A stretch of DNA of 64,000 nucleotides from positions 124,001 to 188,000 of the forward strand of contig NZ_GL892005.1 of assembly GCF_000213575.1 (NCBI RefSeq), read 5' to 3'. Shown here piece by piece: positions 4,505-15,511 of the stretch. The notes beneath the pieces were generated by a model that saw only the letters and a program-made list of their open reading frames with translations, ran no database searches and was not told the DNA's origin. The stretch's first letter is position 1, and the number at the start of each line of letters is the position of its first letter. This DNA is from Dysgonomonas mossii DSM 22836. GTDB lineage: Bacteria > Bacteroidota > Bacteroidia > Bacteroidales > Dysgonomonadaceae. The translations under genes and the position numbers were made by a program.

Positions 4505-4550
4505 AATCCTTTACTTATGGGACTATGTATAAGTAAAGGATTTTTTATTT
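4505..4550. terminator. Bidirectional terminator between the barrel gene and trpA
   Basis: A 13-bp perfect inverted repeat, AATCCTTTACTTA (4505-4517) with TAAGTAAAGGATT (4530-4542), runs into T-rich sequence on the plus strand. It lies between convergent genes. Confidence 0.8.
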
Positions 4551-5317
4551 GCTCAACGCTTCTTTTAGAGCTTTTACTGCCTCTTTTATATTGGCACTTT
4601 CTTTTAGTAATGTGATAAATTTACTTCCGATAATTGCTCCACTAGCATTCTCTTGTGCTGCTTCTAACGTAGCTTTGTTAGATATACCGAATCCAATCAA
4701 ACGGGGATTGCGAAGATTCATTTCGTTTATTTTTCGGAAATAAGCTTGCTTTTTATCATCAAAATTACTCTGTGCACCAGTAGTAGACGCAGACGAAACC
4801 ATGTAGATAAAGCCATCGGTATGTTCATCTATCAGGCGAATACGCTCATCTGATGTTTCAGGGGTGATGAGCATAACTATTTTTATATCGTATTTGTCTG
4901 CTATTGGTTTATATTGAGATATATAGTCATTGAACGGAAGATCGGGAATGATAGCTCCGTCTATACCTGTTTCTTTGCATTGTTTGCAAAAGTTCTCAAA
5001 ACCATATTGCATAATCGGATTGAGATAACCCATCAAGATGAGAGGTATCGTTACCTCGCTACGGATGTCTTTCAACTGTTCGAATAAGACCTTTAATGTC
5101 ATGCCATTGCGAAGAGCAATTGTTCCACTTTCCTGAATAGTTGGGCCATCAGCCATCGGATCTGAAAATGGAATACCTATTTCTATCAGGTCGATACCAT
5201 TTGCTTCTAATTCGCGAATAACATTGAAGGTGTCATTCAATTGCGGAAATCCGGCAGTAAAATAGATGGATAATATATTCTTTTCTTTTTTTCAAACAGT
5301 TGCTTTATTCTATTCAT
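4545..5317 (-). CDS. trpA: Tryptophan synthase alpha subunit, apparent -1 frameshift near N-terminus
   Basis: Cleaves indole-3-glycerol phosphate to indole for TrpB. The body ([48 protein letters not shown]) is a normal TrpA with the catalytic Glu and Asp in place. The natural start is the ATG at 5315-5317, overlapping the trpF stop as ATGAATAG. Read straight, that frame stops after 26 codons (TGA at 5237-5239). The conserved N-terminus ([13 protein letters not shown]) is in the -1 frame. The two frames join at A AAA AAG (5291-5285). One backward slip gives a 257-residue protein of normal family length. A start at the TTG at 5240 would drop beta-strand 1 and is unlikely. Sequencing error, mutation and slippage are all possible. 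Confidence 0.85.
5285..5291 (-). other. Slippery heptamer A AAA AAG within trpA
   Basis: In the frame of the trpA ATG the codons are GAA AAA AAG, so the minus strand holds A AAA AAG in the phase of the dnaX -1 frameshift site. A -1 slip changes the next codon from AAA to GAA and enters the conserved TrpA frame. The A-run is 7 bases (5286-5292), so transcriptional slippage or a miscalled homopolymer would give the same result. I see no strong downstream hairpin. Confidence 0.6.
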
Positions 5318-5933
5318 TTCTTAGTTGTTTTATAAATTGATCAAGTAGTTGTATGTCTTTTAACCCCGGTTCTATTTCAAATTTGCTATTAAGGTCTACT
5401 CCGTATAGCCGAGGGTGCTTTATTGCTTCTATTTGCTGAATGTCTTCAGCTGATATCCCTCCACTAAGGAAAAATGGAGTATCTCCATTATAAGTATCTA
5501 GTATTGCCCAATCGAATTTTTTCCCTGAACCGCCATATTGTGGGGTTTTGGTATCGAATAAGAAATATCCCCGAAGCCCCTCGTATGCTTTAGTCTGTTC
5601 AAAGTCAGAAGACTCGGAAATACAGAAAGCTTTAATTATAGGCATAAACTTGTTTAACTCGCTACAAAAGTTTGGAGATTCGTTTCCGTGCAATTGGATT
5701 AAGTCTAACTTATATTTGTCAATCATTTCAACGATGAAATCTATTCCTGAATTCACAAATACGCCTACTCTTTTGATATTACTAGAGTCTATATTCCCTA
5801 CGTCTTGCCATAGTTGATAATCGATATAGCGGGGTGATTTCTGATAGAATATCATACCCATATAATCAATAGGTAATTTGTTTAACTCCTGTATATTCTC
5901 AGGATATTTCATCCCGCAGACTTTTATCTTCAT
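5310..5933 (-). CDS. trpF: Phosphoribosylanthranilate isomerase
   Basis: Catalyses the Amadori rearrangement of phosphoribosylanthranilate, step three of Trp synthesis. A (beta/alpha)8 barrel of 207 residues, normal length. It starts KVCGMKYPENIQEL with the catalytic Cys, continues with DYMGMIFYQKSPRY, LIQLHGNES, the late FLSGGIS phosphate loop and the catalytic Asp in GVDLNSKFE. The start overlaps the trpC stop (ATGA at 5930-5933) and the stop overlaps the trpA start by 8 bases, so translational coupling along trpC-trpF-trpA is likely. Confidence 0.96.
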   Translation of the reverse strand: MKIKVCGMKYPENIQELNKLPIDYMGMIFYQKSPRYIDYQLWQDVGNIDSSNIKRVGVFVNSGIDFIVEMIDKYKLDLIQLHGNESPNFCSELNKFMPIIKAFCISESSDFEQTKAYEGLRGYFLFDTKTPQYGGSGKKFDWAILDTYNGDTPFFLSGGISAEDIQQIEAIKHPRLYGVDLNSKFEIEPGLKDIQLLDQFIKQLRNE

Positions 5934-6712
5934 GCCAATTGGTTTATAAAGTCTTCCAATGCTTTCCCCGGATTACTTGTTTTCATAAAGTTCTCTCCCA
6001 TCAGGAATCCTTTGTATCCTGCCTGTTGCAGATCGATGACTGTTTGAGGTTCAGATATACCACTTTCGGATATCTTAATAAAGTCGCTCGGTATCTTATC
6101 TGCCAAGTCAAAAGAGATTTGTATATCTGTAACAAAGGTTCCCAGATTGCGGTTGTTGACCCCTACAACGTCTACTTTATCATTGATATGATGAAGTTCC
6201 TGCTCGTTATGAATTTCCAACAAAACATCAAGGTGTAGTTCCTTTGCTTTCTGTGCCAGTTGTTTAGTTTCATCTATCGTCAGAGCTGAGGCAATCAGTA
6301 ATATGGCACTGGCTCCCGATATTTTAGCCTGATACAATTGGTATCCATCCACTACGAAATCTTTACGTAATAATGGCATTTTTGTAAGACTTCCGGCTAA
6401 TTCTAGATCAGCTAATTCCCCTCCAAAGAAATCCATGTCGGTAAGTACAGATATTGCACTAGCTCCGTTTTGGGAGTATAGAGGAATTACATCTTCTATT
6501 TTTGCATCTTTAAAGATCCAGTCACGAGAAGGTGAGCGACGCTTAAATTCCGCAATAATTCCTGTTCTTGAATTCTTGATAGCTTCTTTAAAAGAGGCAG
6601 GAGTAGTGATTGTCGATAATCTTTTTTCTAATTCGTTGATAGAAGTGTCTTTTTTATGTCTTTCTACTTCCAACCGTTTGTTTGCAATTATCTTATCTAA
6701 AATATTAGTCAT
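5930..6712 (-). CDS. trpC: Indole-3-glycerol phosphate synthase
   Basis: Closes the pyrrole ring to form indole-3-glycerol phosphate. 260 residues, a stand-alone TrpC not fused to TrpF. Family signatures are IAEFKRRSPSR (catalytic Lys), ISVLTDMDFFGG, LRKDFVVDGYQ, DVVGVNNRNLGTF, ISESGIS and GFLMGENFM. It begins 8 bases after the MFS transporter stop and overlaps trpF by 4 bases, so it belongs to the long trp transcript. Confidence 0.97.
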   Translation of the reverse strand: MTNILDKIIANKRLEVERHKKDTSINELEKRLSTITTPASFKEAIKNSRTGIIAEFKRRSPSRDWIFKDAKIEDVIPLYSQNGASAISVLTDMDFFGGELADLELAGSLTKMPLLRKDFVVDGYQLYQAKISGASAILLIASALTIDETKQLAQKAKELHLDVLLEIHNEQELHHINDKVDVVGVNNRNLGTFVTDIQISFDLADKIPSDFIKISESGISEPQTVIDLQQAGYKGFLMGENFMKTSNPGKALEDFINQLA

Positions 6713-6720
6713 ATCTTATA

Positions 6721-7899
6721 TTATTGTTTTTCTTTCTTCAGAACGTTAATAACAGAAGCCAATGCTACAATGCAAATGCCGAACATACCTATCAGTGCAT
6801 AAGAATATCGCAAGTTGGTTGCACTTGCAATATACCCGATCAGAGGAGGTCCCATCAAAAAGCCGAGGAAACTCACACTGGATACTAATGTCAGTGCTAT
6901 ACTTGTTGATATTTTTGTTTTCTGTCCGGCAATACTATACACTGTGGGTACAATACCCGCCGTACCCAACCCGATAATCATAAAGGCTATGATAGTAGTT
7001 ATGAAATGCGGAAAAGCTACAGCAGCGAACAGTCCTGTTGCTATAAGGATACCTCCTACTTGAACAACACGTTGCGAACCCCATTTCTGAGTGGCCTTGT
7101 CGATAACAAATCGTCCTGATGCCATCGTTATCATATATGCTGCTAGTCCGATAGGGGCCATATGTACCGGAGTGCCTACTACATCTATCAGATAAAGCCC
7201 ACTCCAGTCGGCCATAGCACCCTCGGCAGCCATACCACAAAATGCCACAATGCCCAGTAAGAACAGAAACTTCTCCGGTTTATTCTTCTTTCTAGCTGCA
7301 ACATCCGACGGATCTTTTTGCTTTTTAAGATCAGCCTGAAGATAGCGCATATTGAGATAGACAGCTATAAGAACAAGTGTTCCGATGATGCAAAAATGAT
7401 AGATAGGTTTGAACTTTAGCGATGCCATTAACAGCCCTACGGATGCACCGGCCAATCCTGCCAAGCTCCACCCTCCATGAAAGGAGGCCATGATCGGTTT
7501 ATTATAAGTAGCTTCAAGCGTTACAGCCTGAGTATTGACTGATATATTGCAGAAATTGCCGCAAAAGCCGAAAAATATAAGACTCATAATCAAGGCATAT
7601 TCAGAACCTGAAAGCCCTATAAGTAGCAACGCTAAGACATAGCCTGTAAGAGCTAAGGGTAGAATACGTTTACTTCCCACTCTGGATATGAGTAAGCCTG
7701 ATATGGTCATCCCGCATATCTGTCCGATAGGGATCATTAACAGGATAGTACCCCATGCTGCATCACCCAGTCCCAAAGAATTCTTTATATCGGGAATTCG
7801 GCTAGCCCAGCTGGAAAAGCACATACCCGAACAAAAATACAGACAGAAAATAGCTAGTCGTATACGTTCTTTCGATGTTGTATTGGTCGTTATATCCAT
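6721..7899 (-). CDS. MFS transporter embedded in the trp operon
   Basis: Integral membrane protein with about 12 hydrophobic segments, 392 residues, resembling the YbjJ-like branch of the major facilitator superfamily. Motifs include CFSSWASRIPDIKNSLG near the N-terminus, SRVGSKRILPL after TM2 (motif-A position), and GRFVIDKATQKWGSQRVVQ in the second half. Its ATG overlaps the oxidoreductase stop by one base (TAATG) and its stop lies 8 bases before trpC, so it is co-transcribed and probably translationally coupled. Export of Trp, an intermediate or an indole derivative is a reasonable guess from position only; the substrate is unknown. Confidence 0.85.
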   Translation of the reverse strand: MDITTNTTSKERIRLAIFCLYFCSGMCFSSWASRIPDIKNSLGLGDAAWGTILLMIPIGQICGMTISGLLISRVGSKRILPLALTGYVLALLLIGLSGSEYALIMSLIFFGFCGNFCNISVNTQAVTLEATYNKPIMASFHGGWSLAGLAGASVGLLMASLKFKPIYHFCIIGTLVLIAVYLNMRYLQADLKKQKDPSDVAARKKNKPEKFLFLLGIVAFCGMAAEGAMADWSGLYLIDVVGTPVHMAPIGLAAYMITMASGRFVIDKATQKWGSQRVVQVGGILIATGLFAAVAFPHFITTIIAFMIIGLGTAGIVPTVYSIAGQKTKISTSIALTLVSSVSFLGFLMGPPLIGYIASATNLRYSYALIGMFGICIVALASVINVLKKEKQ

Positions 7900-8471
7900 T
7901 ATTTACGAGCTAATAGCTCTATTTTGTTTAACCATTTTTCCCGTTGTTCGGGAGTTGATCCTTTTATTGTTGCCAGATAAGTTGTTCTGATATTTTTAAT
8001 ACCGCAAAATGCACCGATATTTTTTCTTATCATTTTTCCTCCGATATCTTTCACTATCCATTTGTAATAAAAAACAGGTGCATCCATCGTGCTGATGATT
8101 TCAGATGTTTTTCCCATCAATAGTTTTTTTGGAAACGGAGACTTTTCCTGATATTCAAAAGTGAATCCCGGAAGGAATAGCCTTTCTATAAATCCTTTCA
8201 ATAGAGCAGGAGGGGATGCCCACCATGTAGGGTAAATCCAAACAATATGTTCTGCCCATTGCAACTTGTCCCAAGCTTCCAACAGATCGGGCTCGAGTTC
8301 CGTTCTTTTGCGATAGCCATACATCAGTATGGGATTGAAATTCATTTCAGCGAGGATGATCTCTTTTACTTCATTTCCTTTTGCCAGAGTACCTTTCTTG
8401 TATTGCTGATGCAGCCCAAAGCAAAAGCTTTCTTTGTCGGGATGTCCGTTAATTATTAAAACTTTTTTCAT
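7899..8471 (-). CDS. NAD(P)H-dependent flavodoxin-fold oxidoreductase
   Basis: 190-residue quinone-reductase-like flavoprotein (NQO1/MdaB/KefF superfamily). The N-terminus VLIINGHPDKESFC is the FMN/FAD phosphate loop, and IVWIYPTWWASPPALLKGF is the conserved flavin-contacting segment, followed by FLPGFTFEY. It probably passes two electrons from NAD(P)H to a quinone or other electrophile. It lies 20 bases after trpD and overlaps the MFS gene by one base, inside the trp operon. No step of the standard Trp pathway needs it. A role in handling a side product is speculative. Confidence 0.85.
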   Translation of the reverse strand: MKKVLIINGHPDKESFCFGLHQQYKKGTLAKGNEVKEIILAEMNFNPILMYGYRKRTELEPDLLEAWDKLQWAEHIVWIYPTWWASPPALLKGFIERLFLPGFTFEYQEKSPFPKKLLMGKTSEIISTMDAPVFYYKWIVKDIGGKMIRKNIGAFCGIKNIRTTYLATIKGSTPEQREKWLNKIELLARK

Positions 8472-8491: not shown

Positions 8492-9490
8492 TTAAGTGTT
8501 TAACTCTAAGAATCTCAAAAATGTATCCTTTAGCCTTCCGCTCTCTATTGTTTCCCGCGCTTGTGCAATGCTATCTTCGAAAGACATATTCGGATCAATT
8601 GTCTGAATTGCTGTAGCAGCGTTTGCAATCACCGCATTTTTTTGTGCTTTAGTCGCTGTATTGCAGATGATATTATCAAAAATCTTAGCGGCATCTTCCG
8701 GCGTTGCGCCACCGTCCAGGTCGGCTTCTTTGCAACGTTCAAAACCAATTAGTTCGGGGCTGTATATTTTTTCTTCAAATTTATTGATTATTTTGAAATC
8801 TCCCGTTAATGATATTTCATCATATCCGTCTAAACTATGTACAATCGAATAATCCACATCCGTTTGTTGATACATATAGAAATACAGACGTGCCATTTTC
8901 AGATTGAAAACACCTAACACCGTGCGCTTTGGTTTTATTGGGTTAACCACCGGTCCCAGCATATTAAAGAAGGTGCGAACACCAAGTGCCTTACGTACGG
9001 GTGCAACCACCTTAAGTGCGTTGTTGAACAGAGGGGCATGCAAGTAAGTTATATTGGTTTTGTCTAAAGATGCTTCCAGCTTGCTCACATCGGATGTGAA
9101 TTTCACACCGTGCTGTTCCATTACATTGGATGCTCCACTGACTGAGGTTGCCCCGTAATTACCATGTTTGGCAACCTTATATCCTGATGCGGCAACAACG
9201 AAGCAAGACAGCGTTGAAATGTTGAATGTATTCTTATTATCTCCGCCTGTACCTACTATGTCGATAGGGTTGTAAGCTGCCAGCGCATCTACATTGGCTC
9301 GCAGATCTAAAAGTGCATCTGCAAATCCGAGAAACTCATCAACGCTGATACTGCGCATAAGAAAGACGCTGATGAATGCTGCAATTTGCGAGTCATTATA
9401 GTCTCCGGCAGCCATCTTTGTCAATATTTCCTTTGCTTCACATCTGTTGAGATATTGATGCTCAAAGAGTCTGTTTAATATTTGTTTCAT
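8492..9490 (-). CDS. trpD: Anthranilate phosphoribosyltransferase
   Basis: Transfers phosphoribose from PRPP to anthranilate. 332 residues, a separate TrpD not fused to TrpG. Signatures: IDIVGTGGDNKNTFNIST (PRPP loop), KHGNYGATSVSGASNVMEQ, and RTFFNMLGPVVNP. The helical N-terminal dimer domain is present. It follows trpB2 after 71 bases that hold a strong hairpin (9519-9546), the widest gap in the operon after the leader. Confidence 0.97.
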   Translation of the reverse strand: MKQILNRLFEHQYLNRCEAKEILTKMAAGDYNDSQIAAFISVFLMRSISVDEFLGFADALLDLRANVDALAAYNPIDIVGTGGDNKNTFNISTLSCFVVAASGYKVAKHGNYGATSVSGASNVMEQHGVKFTSDVSKLEASLDKTNITYLHAPLFNNALKVVAPVRKALGVRTFFNMLGPVVNPIKPKRTVLGVFNLKMARLYFYMYQQTDVDYSIVHSLDGYDEISLTGDFKIINKFEEKIYSPELIGFERCKEADLDGGATPEDAAKIFDNIICNTATKAQKNAVIANAATAIQTIDPNMSFEDSIAQARETIESGRLKDTFLRFLELNT

Positions 9491-9561: not shown

Positions 9562-10923
9562 TTACGGAACCAGATGTTCTAGTGTATTTGTTGTTTTCGC
9601 AATCTCTTCGTCGCCTAGCTCATGGTTCGATAGTTCTCCATCGAAATAACGATCATACGCAGCCATATCGATAAGCCCGTGGCCCGATAGATTAAATAGA
9701 ATTGTTTTTTGCCTTCCTTCCTCTTTTGCTTTCAATGCTTCCTGAATAGCTGTGTGTATAGCGTGTGATGATTCAGGAGCCGGAATTATACCTTCCGCTT
9801 TAGCAAACAATATAGCCGCTTCGAATGTATCGAGTTGCTTTACATCTACAGCTTCTATATATCCGTCTTTTTTCAACTGGCTGACAATGGTTCCTGCACC
9901 ATGGTACCGAAGGCCACCCGCATGGATATTTGCCGGCGCAAAATTGTGCCCAAGTGTGTACATCGGTAGTAGTGGTGTATATCCGGCTTCGTCACCAAAG
10001 TCATATTCGAATTTACCTCGGGTCAGTTTAGGACATGATGCTGGCTCTGCCGCAATCAGGCGTACTTCTTTTCCTTCGGTCAGTTTATGGCGCAGAAAAG
10101 GGAATGTGATACCGGAAAAATTCGATCCGCCGCCAAAACAGCCTATTACTATATCGGGATATTCTCCGGCTATTTCCATTTGTTTTTCCGCCTCCAACCC
10201 AATGATCGTTTGATGCAGAGATACATGATTCAGAACACTGCCTAATGTATATCTACAATTCGGTGTGTTTAATGCCAGCTCTATGGCCTCCGAGATAGCT
10301 GTGCCGAGGCTTCCCTGATAAGTCGGGTTTTCTGTAATTATTTTACGTCCGGCTTTCGTACTCATACTCGGCGAAGCTATAACTTCGGCTCCATATGCCT
10401 GCATGATAGATCGGCGGTAAGGTTTCTGGTGGTAACTGATCTTAACCATATATACAGCCAGATTCAGATCGAAATGACTTGCTGCATACGATAAGGCGGC
10501 ACCCCATTGTCCAGCTCCGGTTTCGGTTGTGATGTTTGTTATACCCTGCTCTTTACAGTAATATGCCTGTGCTATTGCCGAGTTTAGTTTGTGTGAACCT
10601 ACAGGGCTGACACTCTCATTTTTGAAATAAATATGAGCCGGTGTGTCCAACGCTTTTTCTAGACCGTAGGCTCTTACCAACGGTGTAGGACGGTAATTTT
10701 TATATAGTTCCCGTATTGGTTCGGGTATTTCTATCCAACGGTCGGTATCGTTTAGTTCCTGTTTAGCTAGCTCTGTCGCAAATATTGGTTCCAGATCACT
10801 TACCTCCAATGGCTTTTTTGTTGCCGGATGAAGCGGTGGTAGAGGTTTGTTTTTCATGTCCGCCACAATGTTATACCAGCTTCTAGGAATGTCGTTCTCG
10901 CTTAATAAGATTTTCTTTTTCAT
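9562..10923 (-). CDS. trpB2: TrpB2-type tryptophan synthase beta homolog (PLP-dependent)
   Basis: 453-residue fold-type II PLP enzyme. Features that set the long TrpB2 class apart from TrpB are the N-terminal extension (WYNIVADMKNKPLPPLHP), the motif RPTPLVRAYGLEKAL, the PLP lysine in GSHKLNSAIAQAYY, TETGAGQWGAALSYAA and the loop GCFGGGSNFSG. A normal trpB is the first gene of the same operon. Known TrpB2 enzymes can make Trp from indole and serine but usually do not bind TrpA well. A role in indole salvage or as a TrpA-independent synthase is inference. It lies 14 bases after trpG. Confidence 0.93.
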   Translation of the reverse strand: MKKKILLSENDIPRSWYNIVADMKNKPLPPLHPATKKPLEVSDLEPIFATELAKQELNDTDRWIEIPEPIRELYKNYRPTPLVRAYGLEKALDTPAHIYFKNESVSPVGSHKLNSAIAQAYYCKEQGITNITTETGAGQWGAALSYAASHFDLNLAVYMVKISYHQKPYRRSIMQAYGAEVIASPSMSTKAGRKIITENPTYQGSLGTAISEAIELALNTPNCRYTLGSVLNHVSLHQTIIGLEAEKQMEIAGEYPDIVIGCFGGGSNFSGITFPFLRHKLTEGKEVRLIAAEPASCPKLTRGKFEYDFGDEAGYTPLLPMYTLGHNFAPANIHAGGLRYHGAGTIVSQLKKDGYIEAVDVKQLDTFEAAILFAKAEGIIPAPESSHAIHTAIQEALKAKEEGRQKTILFNLSGHGLIDMAAYDRYFDGELSNHELGDEEIAKTTNTLEHLVP

Positions 10924-10937
10924 TATATTAGTATTAA

Positions 10938-11504
10938 TTATTGGTTCAGAAAGTTTTTTACTATTGTTTCTCCGGCAGGAGTTAAAACAGACTCGGGATG
11001 GAATTGTACTCCATGCACATCAAACTCCTTATGCTTTAGCGCCATTATCTGCCCGTTATTGTCCGTTGCTGTTATTTCAATAGAGTCTGGAAGTCCGTTA
11101 TTGTCTACGATCCAAGAATGATAGCGCCCAACTTCTAATTCGCTCCCTAGCGTATCAAATATATAATCGGGTTGTGTGATATTAATCCGGGTTGCTACTC
11201 CATGATACACATCTTCTAGGTTTTTCAACTGAGCACCAAAAGCTTCGCCTATTGCCTGATGTCCAAGGCAAACACCTAATATTGGTTTTTTGCCTGCATA
11301 TTCTTTTATCAGGGGTAATAGTAATCCGGCTTCGGAAGGGATACCGGGACCTGGAGAAAGAATAATTTTATCATATTTAGCAACATCTTCAAGTGCTATT
11401 TTGTCATTCCTGAAAACATCCACATCTGTATAACCTAGCTCCTTTACCAAATGAACAAGATTGTATGTAAATGAATCGTAGTTGTCGAATATCAGAATTT
11501 TCAT
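10938..11504 (-). CDS. trpG: Anthranilate synthase glutamine amidotransferase component
   Basis: Supplies ammonia from glutamine to TrpE. 188 residues, class I amidotransferase: IFDNYDSFTYNLVH at the start, the oxyanion segment SPGPGIPSEAG, nucleophile Cys in GVCLGHQAIGEAF, and the His-Glu pair in VHGVQFHPES. It is not fused to TrpD or TrpE and begins 14 bases after trpE, so stoichiometric expression is expected. Confidence 0.96.
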   Translation of the reverse strand: MKILIFDNYDSFTYNLVHLVKELGYTDVDVFRNDKIALEDVAKYDKIILSPGPGIPSEAGLLLPLIKEYAGKKPILGVCLGHQAIGEAFGAQLKNLEDVYHGVATRINITQPDYIFDTLGSELEVGRYHSWIVDNNGLPDSIEITATDNNGQIMALKHKEFDVHGVQFHPESVLTPAGETIVKNFLNQ

Positions 11505-11518
11505 ATCGAAAGTTACTT

Positions 11519-12925
11519 TTAGTTTTTTAATTCTTCTGCAAACCGAATAGCTTTGGCTAAAGCTCCCAGTTTGTTTTTTACCTCCATTACCTCTGTCTCG
11601 GGATTAGATTTAGATACGATTCCTCCTCCTGCCTGATAGTATAGTGTGTTATTACGACTCAAGAATGTACGTATTGTAATAGCTTGATTAAGGTCTCCGT
11701 TAAAACCTATATAGCCAATGCAGCCGCCATATACACCACGCATTTGTTTTTCGATATCACGTATCAGTTGCATCGCTCGCACTTTGGGCGCACCCGAGAG
11801 TGTTCCGGCCGGAAATGTATCGGCAAAAACAGATATACTGTTATTGTCTCTATCTACAGTCCCACTTACACGAGAAACGAGGTGGATCACATGCGAATAG
11901 AATTGAACATTTTTGTAAAATTCTACTTGCACGTCGTGACAGTTGCGGCTGAGATCATTCCTTGCCAAATCGACAAGCATGACATGCTCTGCATTTTCTT
12001 TTTCATCATTCAGTAAGTTCTCTGAAAGGATGCGGTCTTTCTCATCGTCTCCGGTGCGGAAATACGTTCCGGCAATGGGGTCTATATAAGCTTTGTCTTT
12101 TGTTACCTTGCAATGAGTTTCGGGTGATGAACCGAAAATGCGGTACGAACCAAAGTCGAAATAGAAGAGGTATGGCGAAGGGTTGATAGATCGTAAAGAA
12201 CGATATACTTTAAAATCGTCTCCTGCAAATTTTTGGGTGAAGCAGCGAGAAAGAACAATCTGAAATACATCACCACGTTTGCAATGTGCTATTCCTTTCT
12301 TTATCATTTCCTGATGCTCTTCATCTGTGATCATCGATTGCTCGTCTCCGATGGCTTCAAAATTGTAGGATGGGATATTGTTGTTCGTTAGGATAGCTTC
12401 AAGTTCAGGTGTCTTTTCCTGAGTGCCTTCCACTATATTTTCTACGATGGTAAGTTCATTCTTCAGGTGATTAATAACTAATATGAAACGGTATAATATG
12501 TAGTAAAATTCAGGGACATCAGCATTTCTTAGTTTTGTATTCACCGGATCAACAGCCTCGAAATAGCGAATGGCATCGTAAGAAGTATATCCAAAGAACC
12601 CGTTTATATTTGTCTTGTTTTCTCCTTGTACATCAAACTGCTTGATAAAAGCATTGAACTTATCAGTAAGCTTTTCGTGTCCTAGCAAGGTTTCCTGATG
12701 GGTTGTATTGTCCGGATAAGTCATGGTTATTTCATCATTGTCTACTCTGAATCTAGCAATAGGACTTATACCTATAAAAGAATAGCTGTTTTCTCCACCG
12801 TGATAATCGGAACTTTCCAGTAAGGCAGACTCCGGATACACATCTCTTACCTTTAGATAAATTCCGACAGGAGTCTGTAAATCTGCCAGAAGGTTTTTCG
12901 TCTTTACCTGTATATTGTATTTCAT
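11519..12925 (-). CDS. trpE: Anthranilate synthase component I
   Basis: Converts chorismate plus ammonia to anthranilate. 468 residues. The N-terminal part carries ALLESSDYHGGENSYSFIG, where LLESS is the usual allosteric Trp-binding motif, so feedback inhibition is likely. The catalytic C-terminal domain has KRGDVFQIVLSRCF, DPIAGTYFRTG, ENAEHVMLVDLARNDL, FPAGTLSGAPKVRAM and the terminal GGGIVSKSNPETE. It is second in the operon, 34 bases after trpB. Confidence 0.97.
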   Translation of the reverse strand: MKYNIQVKTKNLLADLQTPVGIYLKVRDVYPESALLESSDYHGGENSYSFIGISPIARFRVDNDEITMTYPDNTTHQETLLGHEKLTDKFNAFIKQFDVQGENKTNINGFFGYTSYDAIRYFEAVDPVNTKLRNADVPEFYYILYRFILVINHLKNELTIVENIVEGTQEKTPELEAILTNNNIPSYNFEAIGDEQSMITDEEHQEMIKKGIAHCKRGDVFQIVLSRCFTQKFAGDDFKVYRSLRSINPSPYLFYFDFGSYRIFGSSPETHCKVTKDKAYIDPIAGTYFRTGDDEKDRILSENLLNDEKENAEHVMLVDLARNDLSRNCHDVQVEFYKNVQFYSHVIHLVSRVSGTVDRDNNSISVFADTFPAGTLSGAPKVRAMQLIRDIEKQMRGVYGGCIGYIGFNGDLNQAITIRTFLSRNNTLYYQAGGGIVSKSNPETEVMEVKNKLGALAKAIRFAEELKN

Positions 12926-12959: not shown

Positions 12960-14144
12960 TTAGCGGTTGCGATAGTTTATATAGGTTTCCATGTCTTTGT
13001 CGCCACGCCCCGATAGGCAAAGCACAACTACATCGTCAGCATTGAACTGCTTTTTGTTCAGTGCACCCAGAGCATGAGCCGATTCTATGGCAGGTATTAT
13101 CCCTTCCAGTATGGTGAGTTCAAAAGCAGCCTCCATCGCTTCATCGTCCGTCACGGCAAGTACTTCAGAACGACCTATCTGAGCAAGGTGTGCGTGCATC
13201 GGTCCAATCCCCGGATAATCCAGTCCGGCTGATATGGAGTAAGGCTCTTCTATCTGTCCGTCCTCCGATTGCATGAGCAGTGTTTTACACCCATGTATAA
13301 TCCCTAATCTGCCTAAGTGGATTGTTGCAGCCGACTCACCTGAGTCTATTCCTTTTCCGGCAGCTTCGGCAAGTACGATCTTTGTTTGGGGCTCATCTAT
13401 AAAGTGATATATTGTTCCGGCGGCATTGCTTCCTCCTCCTACACAAGCGATGAGATAATCAGGAGTCTCACGTCCTTCTTTTTCTAAGAGCTGCTTACGG
13501 ATCTCTTCGCTTATTACAGATTGCAGGCGTGCTACCATGTCGGGATAAGGATGAGGCCCTATGGTAGAACCTATCACATAATAAGTATCGGACGGATGAC
13601 TGCACCAGTCACGGATAGCTTCATTTGTCGCATCTTTCAATGTCATGTTTCCACTGGTTACAGGAACTACTGTAGCTCCCAACATTTCCATCTTCTGTAC
13701 ATTGAGTTTTTGGCGGGCAACATCCGTGGCTCCCATATATACAATGCACTCCATATTCATCAGAGCACATACAGTGGCAGTGGCTACACCATGTTGTCCT
13801 GCTCCTGTTTCGGCAAGTATGCGTGTCTTCCCCATACGGCGGGCTATGAGGATTTGACCTAAAGCATTGTTTATCTTGTGTGAGCCTGTATGATTGAGGT
13901 CTTCACGTTTGAGATATATCTTGCATCCGTATTTTTGGGAAAGCCTGTTTGCTAAATAGAGAGGCGATGGGCGTCCTGCATAATCTCTTAGCAAGTCGTT
14001 ATATTCTTTCTGAAAACTGGGGTCGTTTATGATGTTCAGATATGAGTTCTTTAATGTTTCCACATTGTCATATAAAATCTCAGGGATATATGCACCCCCA
14101 AATTCTCCATAAAAGCCATTTGTATCAACTGCGAATTTTTCCAT
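12960..14144 (-). CDS. trpB: Tryptophan synthase beta subunit (TrpB1)
   Basis: Makes Trp from indole and serine, normally in complex with TrpA. 394 residues, canonical TrpB1: GEFGGAYIPEIL start, PLYLANRLSQKYG, the PLP lysine in HTGSHKINNALGQ, the catalytic Glu in LAETGAGQHGVATAT, CVGGGSNAAGT and the Ser loop LSGRGDKDM near the end. It is the first structural gene of the operon, 27 bases after the attenuator U-run. Placing trpB first is the usual Bacteroidetes order. Confidence 0.97.
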   Translation of the reverse strand: MEKFAVDTNGFYGEFGGAYIPEILYDNVETLKNSYLNIINDPSFQKEYNDLLRDYAGRPSPLYLANRLSQKYGCKIYLKREDLNHTGSHKINNALGQILIARRMGKTRILAETGAGQHGVATATVCALMNMECIVYMGATDVARQKLNVQKMEMLGATVVPVTSGNMTLKDATNEAIRDWCSHPSDTYYVIGSTIGPHPYPDMVARLQSVISEEIRKQLLEKEGRETPDYLIACVGGGSNAAGTIYHFIDEPQTKIVLAEAAGKGIDSGESAATIHLGRLGIIHGCKTLLMQSEDGQIEEPYSISAGLDYPGIGPMHAHLAQIGRSEVLAVTDDEAMEAAFELTILEGIIPAIESAHALGALNKKQFNADDVVVLCLSGRGDKDMETYINYRNR

Positions 14145-14171: not shown

Positions 14172-14204
14172 AAAAAAAGCCTATCGTGAGTTACGATAGG
14201 CTTT
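14172..14204 (-). terminator. Attenuator terminator of the trp operon
   Basis: On the minus strand AAAGCCTATCGT (14204-14193) and ACGATAGGCTTT (14187-14176) form a perfect 12-bp stem with a 5-base loop, followed by an unbroken run of T (7 counting those in the stem). It lies 43 bases after the leader-peptide stop and 27 bases before trpB, the right arrangement for a classical attenuator. Confidence 0.88.
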
Positions 14205-14253
14205 GTATTTTAAAAATTTTCTATTTGTAAATACACACCGATTTGGCTCACGA
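14184..14253 (-). promoter_or_regulatory. Antiterminator pairing in the trp leader
   Basis: Minus-strand TCGTGAG (14253-14247), overlapping the last sense codon and stop of the leader peptide, is the exact complement of CTCACGA (14190-14184), which forms the loop and inner 3' arm of the terminator. The two pairings exclude each other. A ribosome stalled at the Trp codons (14272-14280) leaves TCGTGAG free to disrupt the terminator; one that reaches the stop codon covers it. Seven base pairs is modest, so other pairings may contribute. Confidence 0.7.
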
Positions 14254-14307
14254 CTTTTTGAGTTGAGAGTGCCACCACCAATATGTATTTGTTAATAGAA
14301 GATTCAT
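14248..14307 (-). CDS. trpL: trp leader peptide with three tandem Trp codons
   Basis: A 19-codon reading frame, MNLLLTNTYWWWHSQLKKS, starts at ATG 14305-14307 and ends with TGA 14248-14250. TGG TGG TGG at 14272-14280 gives three Trp in a row, where one Trp in about 80 residues would be usual. It starts about 15 bases after the expected transcription start and precedes a terminator with an exclusive antiterminator partner. All elements of ribosome-mediated attenuation are therefore present. The purine-rich AAAAAGAAAG lies upstream of the start in place of a standard ribosome-binding site. Confidence 0.9.
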   Translation of the reverse strand: MNLLLTNTYWWWHSQLKKS

Positions 14308-14321
14308 TATACTTTCTTTTT

Positions 14322-14358
14322 GCTCTTGCAAAGATATAAAAAAAATGAAACGAACAAA
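14322..14358 (-). promoter_or_regulatory. Promoter of the trp operon
   Basis: Minus-strand TTTG (14358-14355), 18 bases, then TATCTTTG (14336-14329): a -33/-7 pair of the Bacteroidetes sigma factor with spacing one base short of the usual 19-21. Transcription should start near 14321, giving a leader transcript of about 180 bases before trpB. Confidence 0.75.
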
Positions 14359-14506: not shown

Positions 14507-15511
14507 ATGCGTAATTTCATTCTCACTCTCCTTATCTTATTTTCTATCTCAGTGAATGCCCAACACAAGTCGCTAAGCTTTAATAACAATGGTAAATTTA
14601 AGATTATCCAGTTTACCGATATCCACTATAAGAAGAATGTTCCCGAATCGGCAGTTGCCTTAAAGCTAATCAGTGAAGTACTTGATGCCGAAAAGCCCGA
14701 CTTAGTTGTATTCACAGGTGATGTCATTTATGCGAAGCCTGTGAAAGAAGGACTTGATGATATCTTCAACCTTGTGATAAAAAGGAAGATACCTTGGGCT
14801 TACGTATTCGGAAACCATGATGACGAACACGAAACGTCTCGACAGGAACTCATGGATTTCGTAACCCTCAAACCATACTGTCTTGCTCAGGCAGGAGATA
14901 AGTCTTTGAATGGAGTAGGCAACTATATCCTCGAGGTGAAGGGAGCTTCAGAAGATAAGGTAAAGTCGGTTCTTTACTTTTTCGATTCGGGAGCTTATAC
15001 ACCTATCAAAGAGGTTGGTACTTATGACTGGCTTGCATTCAATCAGGTAGAGTGGTACAGAGCTCAAAGTGCTGCATACACCAAACAAAATGCCGGAGTG
15101 CCTTACCCTGCTCTTGCCTTTTTCCATATCCCGTTGGTTGAATACTCGATGATGAAAGCTGAGAAATACGACCAGCTGATAGGAAGCCGTGATGAGAAAG
15201 AATGCCACGGAAAGATGAACACCGGAATGTTTGCAGCCATGCGCGAAGCCGGAGATGTGATGGGTACTTTTGTAGGGCACGACCACGACAACGATTATAT
15301 AGGAGAATACTATAACATATATCTCGCTTATGGACGTTATTCGGGAGGCAATACCGAGTACAACAACCTGGGTAAGAACGGATGCCGTGTCATAGAGCTC
15401 GAAGAAGGCAAACGAACTTTCTCTACTTATATCCGACTGCTGGGTGGTGACAAGTTATACCCTGTAACTTACCCTGATACATTTGCCAAAAAAGCAGAAG
15501 TAAAACAATAG
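14507..15511 (+). CDS. Secreted calcineurin-like metallophosphoesterase
   Basis: 334 residues with a signal peptide (about 1-18, ending SVNAQ). Metal-ligand motifs appear in order: FTDIHYKKN, VVFTGDVIY, VFGNHDDEHE, a His in FFHIPLVEY, and VGHDHDNDY. This matches the purple-acid-phosphatase-like group (DCR2-type) with two metal ions, acting outside the cytoplasm on an unknown phosphoester. It has its own promoter and a terminator shared with the convergent thioesterase. A link to tryptophan, its divergent neighbour, is not implied. Confidence 0.9.
   Translation: MRNFILTLLILFSISVNAQHKSLSFNNNGKFKIIQFTDIHYKKNVPESAVALKLISEVLDAEKPDLVVFTGDVIYAKPVKEGLDDIFNLVIKRKIPWAYVFGNHDDEHETSRQELMDFVTLKPYCLAQAGDKSLNGVGNYILEVKGASEDKVKSVLYFFDSGAYTPIKEVGTYDWLAFNQVEWYRAQSAAYTKQNAGVPYPALAFFHIPLVEYSMMKAEKYDQLIGSRDEKECHGKMNTGMFAAMREAGDVMGTFVGHDHDNDYIGEYYNIYLAYGRYSGGNTEYNNLGKNGCRVIELEEGKRTFSTYIRLLGGDKLYPVTYPDTFAKKAEVKQ

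Follow-up and report, generated by a model that had tools for sequence, protein, structure and literature searches.

A leader with three consecutive Trp codons upstream of the trp operon of Dysgonomonas mossii and its predicted antiterminator pairing with the terminator loop and 3′ arm

Results

The trp operon and the elements of its leader

The DNA analysed here, referred to as the window, is a stretch of 64,000 nt from Dysgonomonas mossii DSM 22836. It harbors on the minus strand a ten-gene trp cluster recognized by NCBIfam profile matches and, 5′ of this cluster, a leader region. The first gene of the operon is trpB (12960..14144; TIGR00263, 578.7 bits), followed by trpE (11519..12925), whose best NCBIfam match, TIGR00564 with 419 bits, is below the curated cut-off of 517.7, and by trpG (10938..11504; TIGR00566, 190 bits). 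Further downstream are trpB2 (9562..10923; NF009057, 706.8 bits), a second TrpB-type gene beside trpB that encodes a TrpB-like PLP enzyme, and trpD (8492..9490; TIGR01245, 287.8 bits). Between trpD and trpC, the operon also contains genes for an NAD(P)H-oxidoreductase-like protein and for an MFS transporter (6721-8471, minus strand). The cluster ends with trpC (5930-6712; NF001377), trpF (5310-5933; PRK01222-type models) and trpA (4545-5240; TIGR00262), the true start of which may lie upstream of the listed TTG, the profile match beginning at position 24. On its other side, the leader adjoins a divergent gene (14507-15511).

The elements of the leader are likewise encoded on the minus strand. 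A Bacteroidota-type promoter (TAnnTTTG) spans 14329..14358, with TTTG at 14358-14355, an 18-nt spacer and TATCTTTG at 14336-14329. It precedes a leader peptide of 19 codons, MNLLLTNTYWWWHSQLKKS (14248..14307; ATG at 14307-14305, stop codon TGA at 14250-14248), in which three consecutive and conserved Trp codons, TGGTGGTGG (14272..14280), form the putative sensing site. An intrinsic terminator, AAAGCCUAUCGU-AACUC-ACGAUAGGCUUU plus U run (14172..14204), was recognized by sequence, folding and terminator scoring. Its arms (14204-14193 and 14187-14176) form 12 pairs around the loop AACTC, and seven T residues occupy 14178-14172. A preliminary description of this DNA had named the promoter, the 19-codon peptide with three TGG codons and the 12-bp terminator stem with its U run, together with the sequence TCGTGAG (14253-14247), which was said to include the leader stop codon and to be complementary to CTCACGA (14190-14184) in the terminator loop and arm; all of these parts were found in place by a base-by-base check of the sequence. 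Two elements are added here, namely a long leader hairpin and a second helix which extends the antiterminator.

The leader hairpin (about 14231..14291) appears in both the MFE and the centroid structure and would act as a protector, holding the Trp codons and part of the antiterminator strand S2 when no ribosome is present. The MFE of the 159-nt leader is -47.1 kcal/mol compared with -23.4 +/- 3.7 kcal/mol for dinucleotide shuffles (z -6.5). In the ribosome-free state, folding gives a mean probability of 0.68 for the pairing of S2 with upstream sequence and of 0 for its pairing with the terminator segment S3.

These elements were compared among 97 related loci, in which the first downstream trp gene is trpB (59), trpE (31), trpD (5) or trpB2 (1), with none recognized in one case. 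A short ATG frame and a terminator exist in all 97 loci. The window leader has both of these attenuator features, its short frame carrying tandem codons for the amino acid of the pathway and its terminator lying ahead of the first gene. At its longest, the Trp run reaches WWW or WWWW in 73 loci and WW in 23, and a single locus has W-R-W. In 70 of the 97 loci, the motif TAnnTTTG, which like TTTG is quoted in PMC7366714 as the consensus of the primary sigma factor of Bacteroidota, precedes the leader ATG by at most 45 nt, mostly at a distance of 18-25 nt, compared with 3% of shuffled upstream regions. Scanning for sigma-70 promoters is uninformative for a leader of this phylum. In accordance with the weak use of Shine-Dalgarno sequences assumed in the preliminary description, the window leader lacks a core motif (AGGA, GGAG or GAGG at -18 to -4) and only one of the 97 related loci has one.

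Assignment to a known RNA family and distribution

A search with cmscan matched 14195..14327 on the minus strand to all 131 positions of the Rfam model RF01692 (Bacteroid-trp). The score of 49.9 bits is barely above the gathering cut-off of 49 (E 0.0058 over the 64-kb window). This score, together with a position 5′ of trp genes in a member of the Bacteroidota, places the leader in an RNA family that is already catalogued and that Weinberg et al. 2010 (PMC2864571) had included among probable cis-regulatory RNAs. The preliminary description had left undecided whether the leader was known; its family is. Further Rfam matches (Qrr, Phe_leader, Thr_leader, Yfr10 and Trp_leader) all scored below their cut-offs, overlapped the terminator hairpin and were rejected.

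RF01692 was detected in 33 of 61 relatives, in 47 of 295 genomes of the order and in 27 of 296 genomes of the class. These counts are underestimates because four genomes of the same family with trpB and without an Rfam match still carry the leader. As a run of UGG codons raises the score under the Rfam model, 80 loci were selected as a second set with the TrpB protein as the sole criterion; it overlaps in part with the Rfam-based set, some genomes being common to both collections. An ATG-initiated leader with WW and a terminator were found in 71 of these 80 loci. Three others (L118, L120 and L130) have Trp-run leaders apparently starting with GTG, and L133 has one further upstream. Two loci (L117 and L142) were left out for their short upstream DNA, and in L126, L134 and L160 no recognizable Trp leader was seen within 450 nt. 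Thus, at least 75 of the 78 loci with enough upstream DNA carry the leader; homologous upstream regions without Trp frame and terminator had been named beforehand as the observation that would speak against an attenuator. Judged from these sequences, the trp leader recurs before trp genes across the Bacteroidia.

The best named matches of the TrpB protein of the window are from Dysgonomonas (up to 92%). Two loci titled Apibacter (L118 and L120) encode TrpB proteins 80-82% identical to it and have the same kind of leader. A transfer of the operon together with its attenuator is possible.

Probable pairing partner of the antiterminator strand

The 5′ strand of the candidate antiterminator, S2a (GUCGUGAG, 14247..14254), overlaps the leader stop codon and pairs with S3 (CUCACGAU, 14183..14190), which consists of three loop bases and the top of the terminator 3′ arm; permutation and covariation point to both strands. 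In the pairing test, the 45 nt after the Trp codons were confronted either with the loop and the first 6 nt of the terminator 3′ arm or with the last 6 nt of the 5′ arm and the loop. For the window leader, the first partner gave -12.5 kcal/mol (shuffle mean -4.0, p = 0.002) and the second -3.4 kcal/mol (p 0.77). Across 55 dereplicated leaders, pairing with loop and 3′ arm amounted to -9.35 kcal/mol for the own terminator, -7.41 for permuted terminators and -4.91 for shuffled strands, and none of 20,000 terminator permutations was as good. The corresponding values for 5′ arm and loop were -5.82, -5.11 and -4.77 kcal/mol. Individually, 36 of the 55 leaders were significant for the loop and 3′ arm and 10 for the 5′ arm and loop. 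In the TrpB-selected loci the respective numbers were 47 and 1 of 71.

Compensatory changes between S2a and S3 comprise G-C to A-U at positions 1, 6 and 8 and C-G to U-A at position 3. Energy-based permutation serves as the main evidence, because a rigid alignment of S2 and S3 as 8-mers misplaced S3 in several terminators lacking CGA. Kinship among the leaders is controlled only in part by dereplication and permutation.

When the leader is folded with a stalled ribosome, a second helix (helix B, 14200..14240) is predicted between GGUGUGUAUUU (near 14240-14229) and AAAUACAAAGCC. The partner of GGUGUGUAUUU, AAAUAC(A)..GCC, lies directly ahead of the terminator 5′ arm and extends into it (z -2.0 for the sequence of the window leader). 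No general signal for this helix emerged when the entire linker was shuffled (mean z -0.28, 31 leaders); when the strand after S2a was paired with the 5′ arm in 44 Bacteroidales representatives, 214 of 20,000 permutations were as good. An extension of the antiterminator into the 5′ arm by helix B is thus predicted for the window leader and has moderate support across the Bacteroidales.

A classical attenuator of the E. coli type, whose antiterminator strand takes the 5′ arm of the terminator, is an unlikely description of the window leader. It suits trpL of E. coli as well as the D. mossii leaders of his, phe and ilv (see below), it agrees with the pairing of helix B to part of the 5′ arm, and some relatives, mainly outside the Bacteroidales (L082, L084 and L096-L098, also L029), are of this type. 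The 5′-arm values given above for the window leader and the TrpB-selected loci led us to reject this arm as the main partner of S2.

Within the 55 dereplicated leaders, those favoring 5′ arm and loop are commoner outside the Bacteroidales. In the trp leaders found there (L082, L084, L085 and L093-L099), S2 pairs with the terminator 5′ arm in several cases, so the antiterminator partner has changed within one RNA family.

Predicted ribosome-dependent switching

Partial transcripts were folded with a block on the upstream RNA that reached as far as 12 nt beyond the stalled codon; the footprint size and the RNA length held in RNA polymerase are assumptions taken from E. coli. For the window leader, placing the ribosome on the second or third Trp codon gave S2:S3 probabilities of 0.60-0.62 with the RNA out to 14186 and of 0.96-0.99 with the RNA out to 14183-14180. 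RNA polymerase holds a 9-nt hybrid and about 5 nt in the exit channel, and the latter range would thus place it in the U run. With the ribosome absent or at the stop codon, S2:S3 was 0 and the terminator nucleus formed, in accordance with the previously made claim that a ribosome which finishes translation blocks the antiterminator. Once the RNA was out to 14178 or beyond, the terminator was favored in all states, including the stalled one. Antitermination must therefore be kinetic in this model, since the terminator wins at equilibrium even with a stalled ribosome.

In 55 leaders, the probability of the terminator nucleus was 0.34 with the ribosome stalled, 0.95 with the ribosome at the stop codon and 0.88 without ribosome. 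A switch of at least 0.3 was obtained for 44 of the 55 real leaders compared with 36 of 330 controls with shuffled linkers (11%), and a clear switch was absent from the model in the other 11 leaders. Sequence, covariation and folding together argue for an antiterminator which excludes the terminator, is freed by stalling and is covered at the stop codon.

Discussion

Proposed mechanism and alternative readings

Taken together, the leader is very probably a ribosome-mediated transcription attenuator of the RF01692 family which couples transcription of the trp operon to charged tRNA-Trp. This part of the preliminary description stands, supported by the individual parts, their conservation, covariation and folding; the enterobacterial geometry ascribed to it is not supported, S2 being predicted to pair with the loop and 3′ arm. 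Transcription would start just upstream of the 19-codon WWW leader. With plentiful Trp, the ribosome reaching the UGA would cover S2a (GUCGUGAG) and the terminator would form. When charged Trp-tRNA is scarce, the ribosome would stall on the UGG codons and open the leader hairpin, and the freed S2a could pair with S3 (CUCACGAU) as S3 exits RNA polymerase, so that nucleation of the terminator would be blocked. Helix B would contribute pairing to the 5′ arm, and RNA polymerase would pass the U run. The choice would be a kinetic one, with the terminator being the stabler structure as soon as its 3′ arm has emerged completely. Without translation, the leader hairpin would retain S2a and termination would result. 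From the combination of a Trp-Trp-Trp leader peptide and a switchable stop signal, the trp genes are probably read through only when Trp is scarce; ribosome stalling, the decision made by the polymerase and cellular regulation by Trp are inferred here from the sequence.

A Trp-binding riboswitch or a protein-bound leader, in which the Trp-rich frame would be incidental, could explain why the leader hairpin is long and stable, and is nevertheless quite improbable. Among the relatives, the Trp run, the frame and the placement of the stop codon near S2 are conserved whereas the arms of the hairpin vary, no conserved aptamer core was seen among the related leaders, and in folding the ribosome positions alone yield the switch. 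Hardly credible is an explanation without attenuation, be it control at the level of translation or a terminator that serves a transcript from upstream: the terminator does end about 30 nt before trpB and, its stem being near-palindromic, a terminator-like site is scored on the plus strand too, but the neighboring gene is divergent, the promoter sits between this gene and the leader, and covariation links S2 to the terminator.

Bacteroides, Parabacteroides, Phocaeicola and Dysgonomonas, all of them common gut genera, carry leaders of the variant described here. Such an attenuator would imply that in Bacteroidota a ribosome can initiate in the absence of a Shine-Dalgarno core and still keep pace with RNA polymerase closely enough for control.

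Comparison with known systems

As the element is already catalogued, its discovery is not news; what is added is a tested switching model with an antiterminator partner unlike the textbook one. The window leader shares with RF01692 the full-length match, the position upstream of trp genes and the Trp-rich leader. The Rfam model represents the leader hairpin and stops within the 5′ arm of the terminator; neither the complete terminator nor the S2:S3 antiterminator described here is part of it. We found no description of the S2:S3 architecture in the main texts covered by a partial literature search, and it is for this reason that we regard it only provisionally as an apparently undescribed variant within a known family.

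Within the phylum, clues to leader-peptide attenuation have been reported before amino acid biosynthesis operons of Flavobacterium psychrophilum (PMC9723704), in a paper whose main text is silent on antiterminator architecture and on trp, and leader-peptide-like sORFs were noted in B. thetaiotaomicron (PMC7366714). For the fhsA candidate motif, the terminator stem-loop was proposed to pair with an upstream element, thereby blocking termination (PMC11109978); it is a riboswitch candidate without leader peptide and hence a precedent for loop capture only.

Three further attenuator-like leaders of the D. mossii genome were analysed by the pairing test, and none of them matched Rfam. The hisG leader (HHHH) favors the 5′ arm with p 0.02, the leader of the PDT gene (pheA; FFFFYFYF) with p 0.08 and the ilvD leader, with a frame rich in Ile, Leu and Val, with p 0.04. 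The first, MSNKFHHHHYSVTPVG (L100, about 1201-1360; G000:C2), is followed by a terminator and a 5′-arm antiterminator of GUUGGGUAAGU with GCUUGCCUGAU. The pheA leader MNIFSYTYFFFFYFYFRK (L101, minus strand) is located ~160 nt 5′ of its gene and has a terminator and an antiterminator of ACAGGA with the 5′ arm; in the ilvD leader MTNCFLHILSLIDILLVGQNK (L102, about 1232-1400; G000:C6), a terminator is again present and AAUGAGAAA forms the antiterminator with the 5′ arm. Upstream of the homoserine dehydrogenase gene, no thr leader was seen. We consider it likely that the trp leaders of Bacteroidales and many other Bacteroidia are of a distinct design, in which the freed strand binds the terminator loop together with the top of the 3′ arm when these emerge from the paused polymerase and nucleation is blocked late and in a purely kinetic manner, with the D. 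mossii leaders of his, phe and ilv being of the E. coli 5′-arm type.

The enterobacterial trpL family (RF00513) scores 16.6 bits on the window leader compared with a cut-off of 41, and S2 does not pair with the terminator 5′ arm as in that family, helix B reaching this arm in part only. In the pairing test, trpL of E. coli K-12 favors the 5′ arm (-10.9 vs -4.9 kcal/mol), the 5′-arm value being non-significant against shuffles (p 0.12). Both leaders encode a short peptide with tandem Trp codons and have competing protector, antiterminator and terminator structures. In the window leader, unlike E. coli trpL, the stop codon is inside S2 and there is no Shine-Dalgarno core. Thus, the leader of D. 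mossii is like E. coli trpL in its logic and differs from it in the part of the terminator that is captured.
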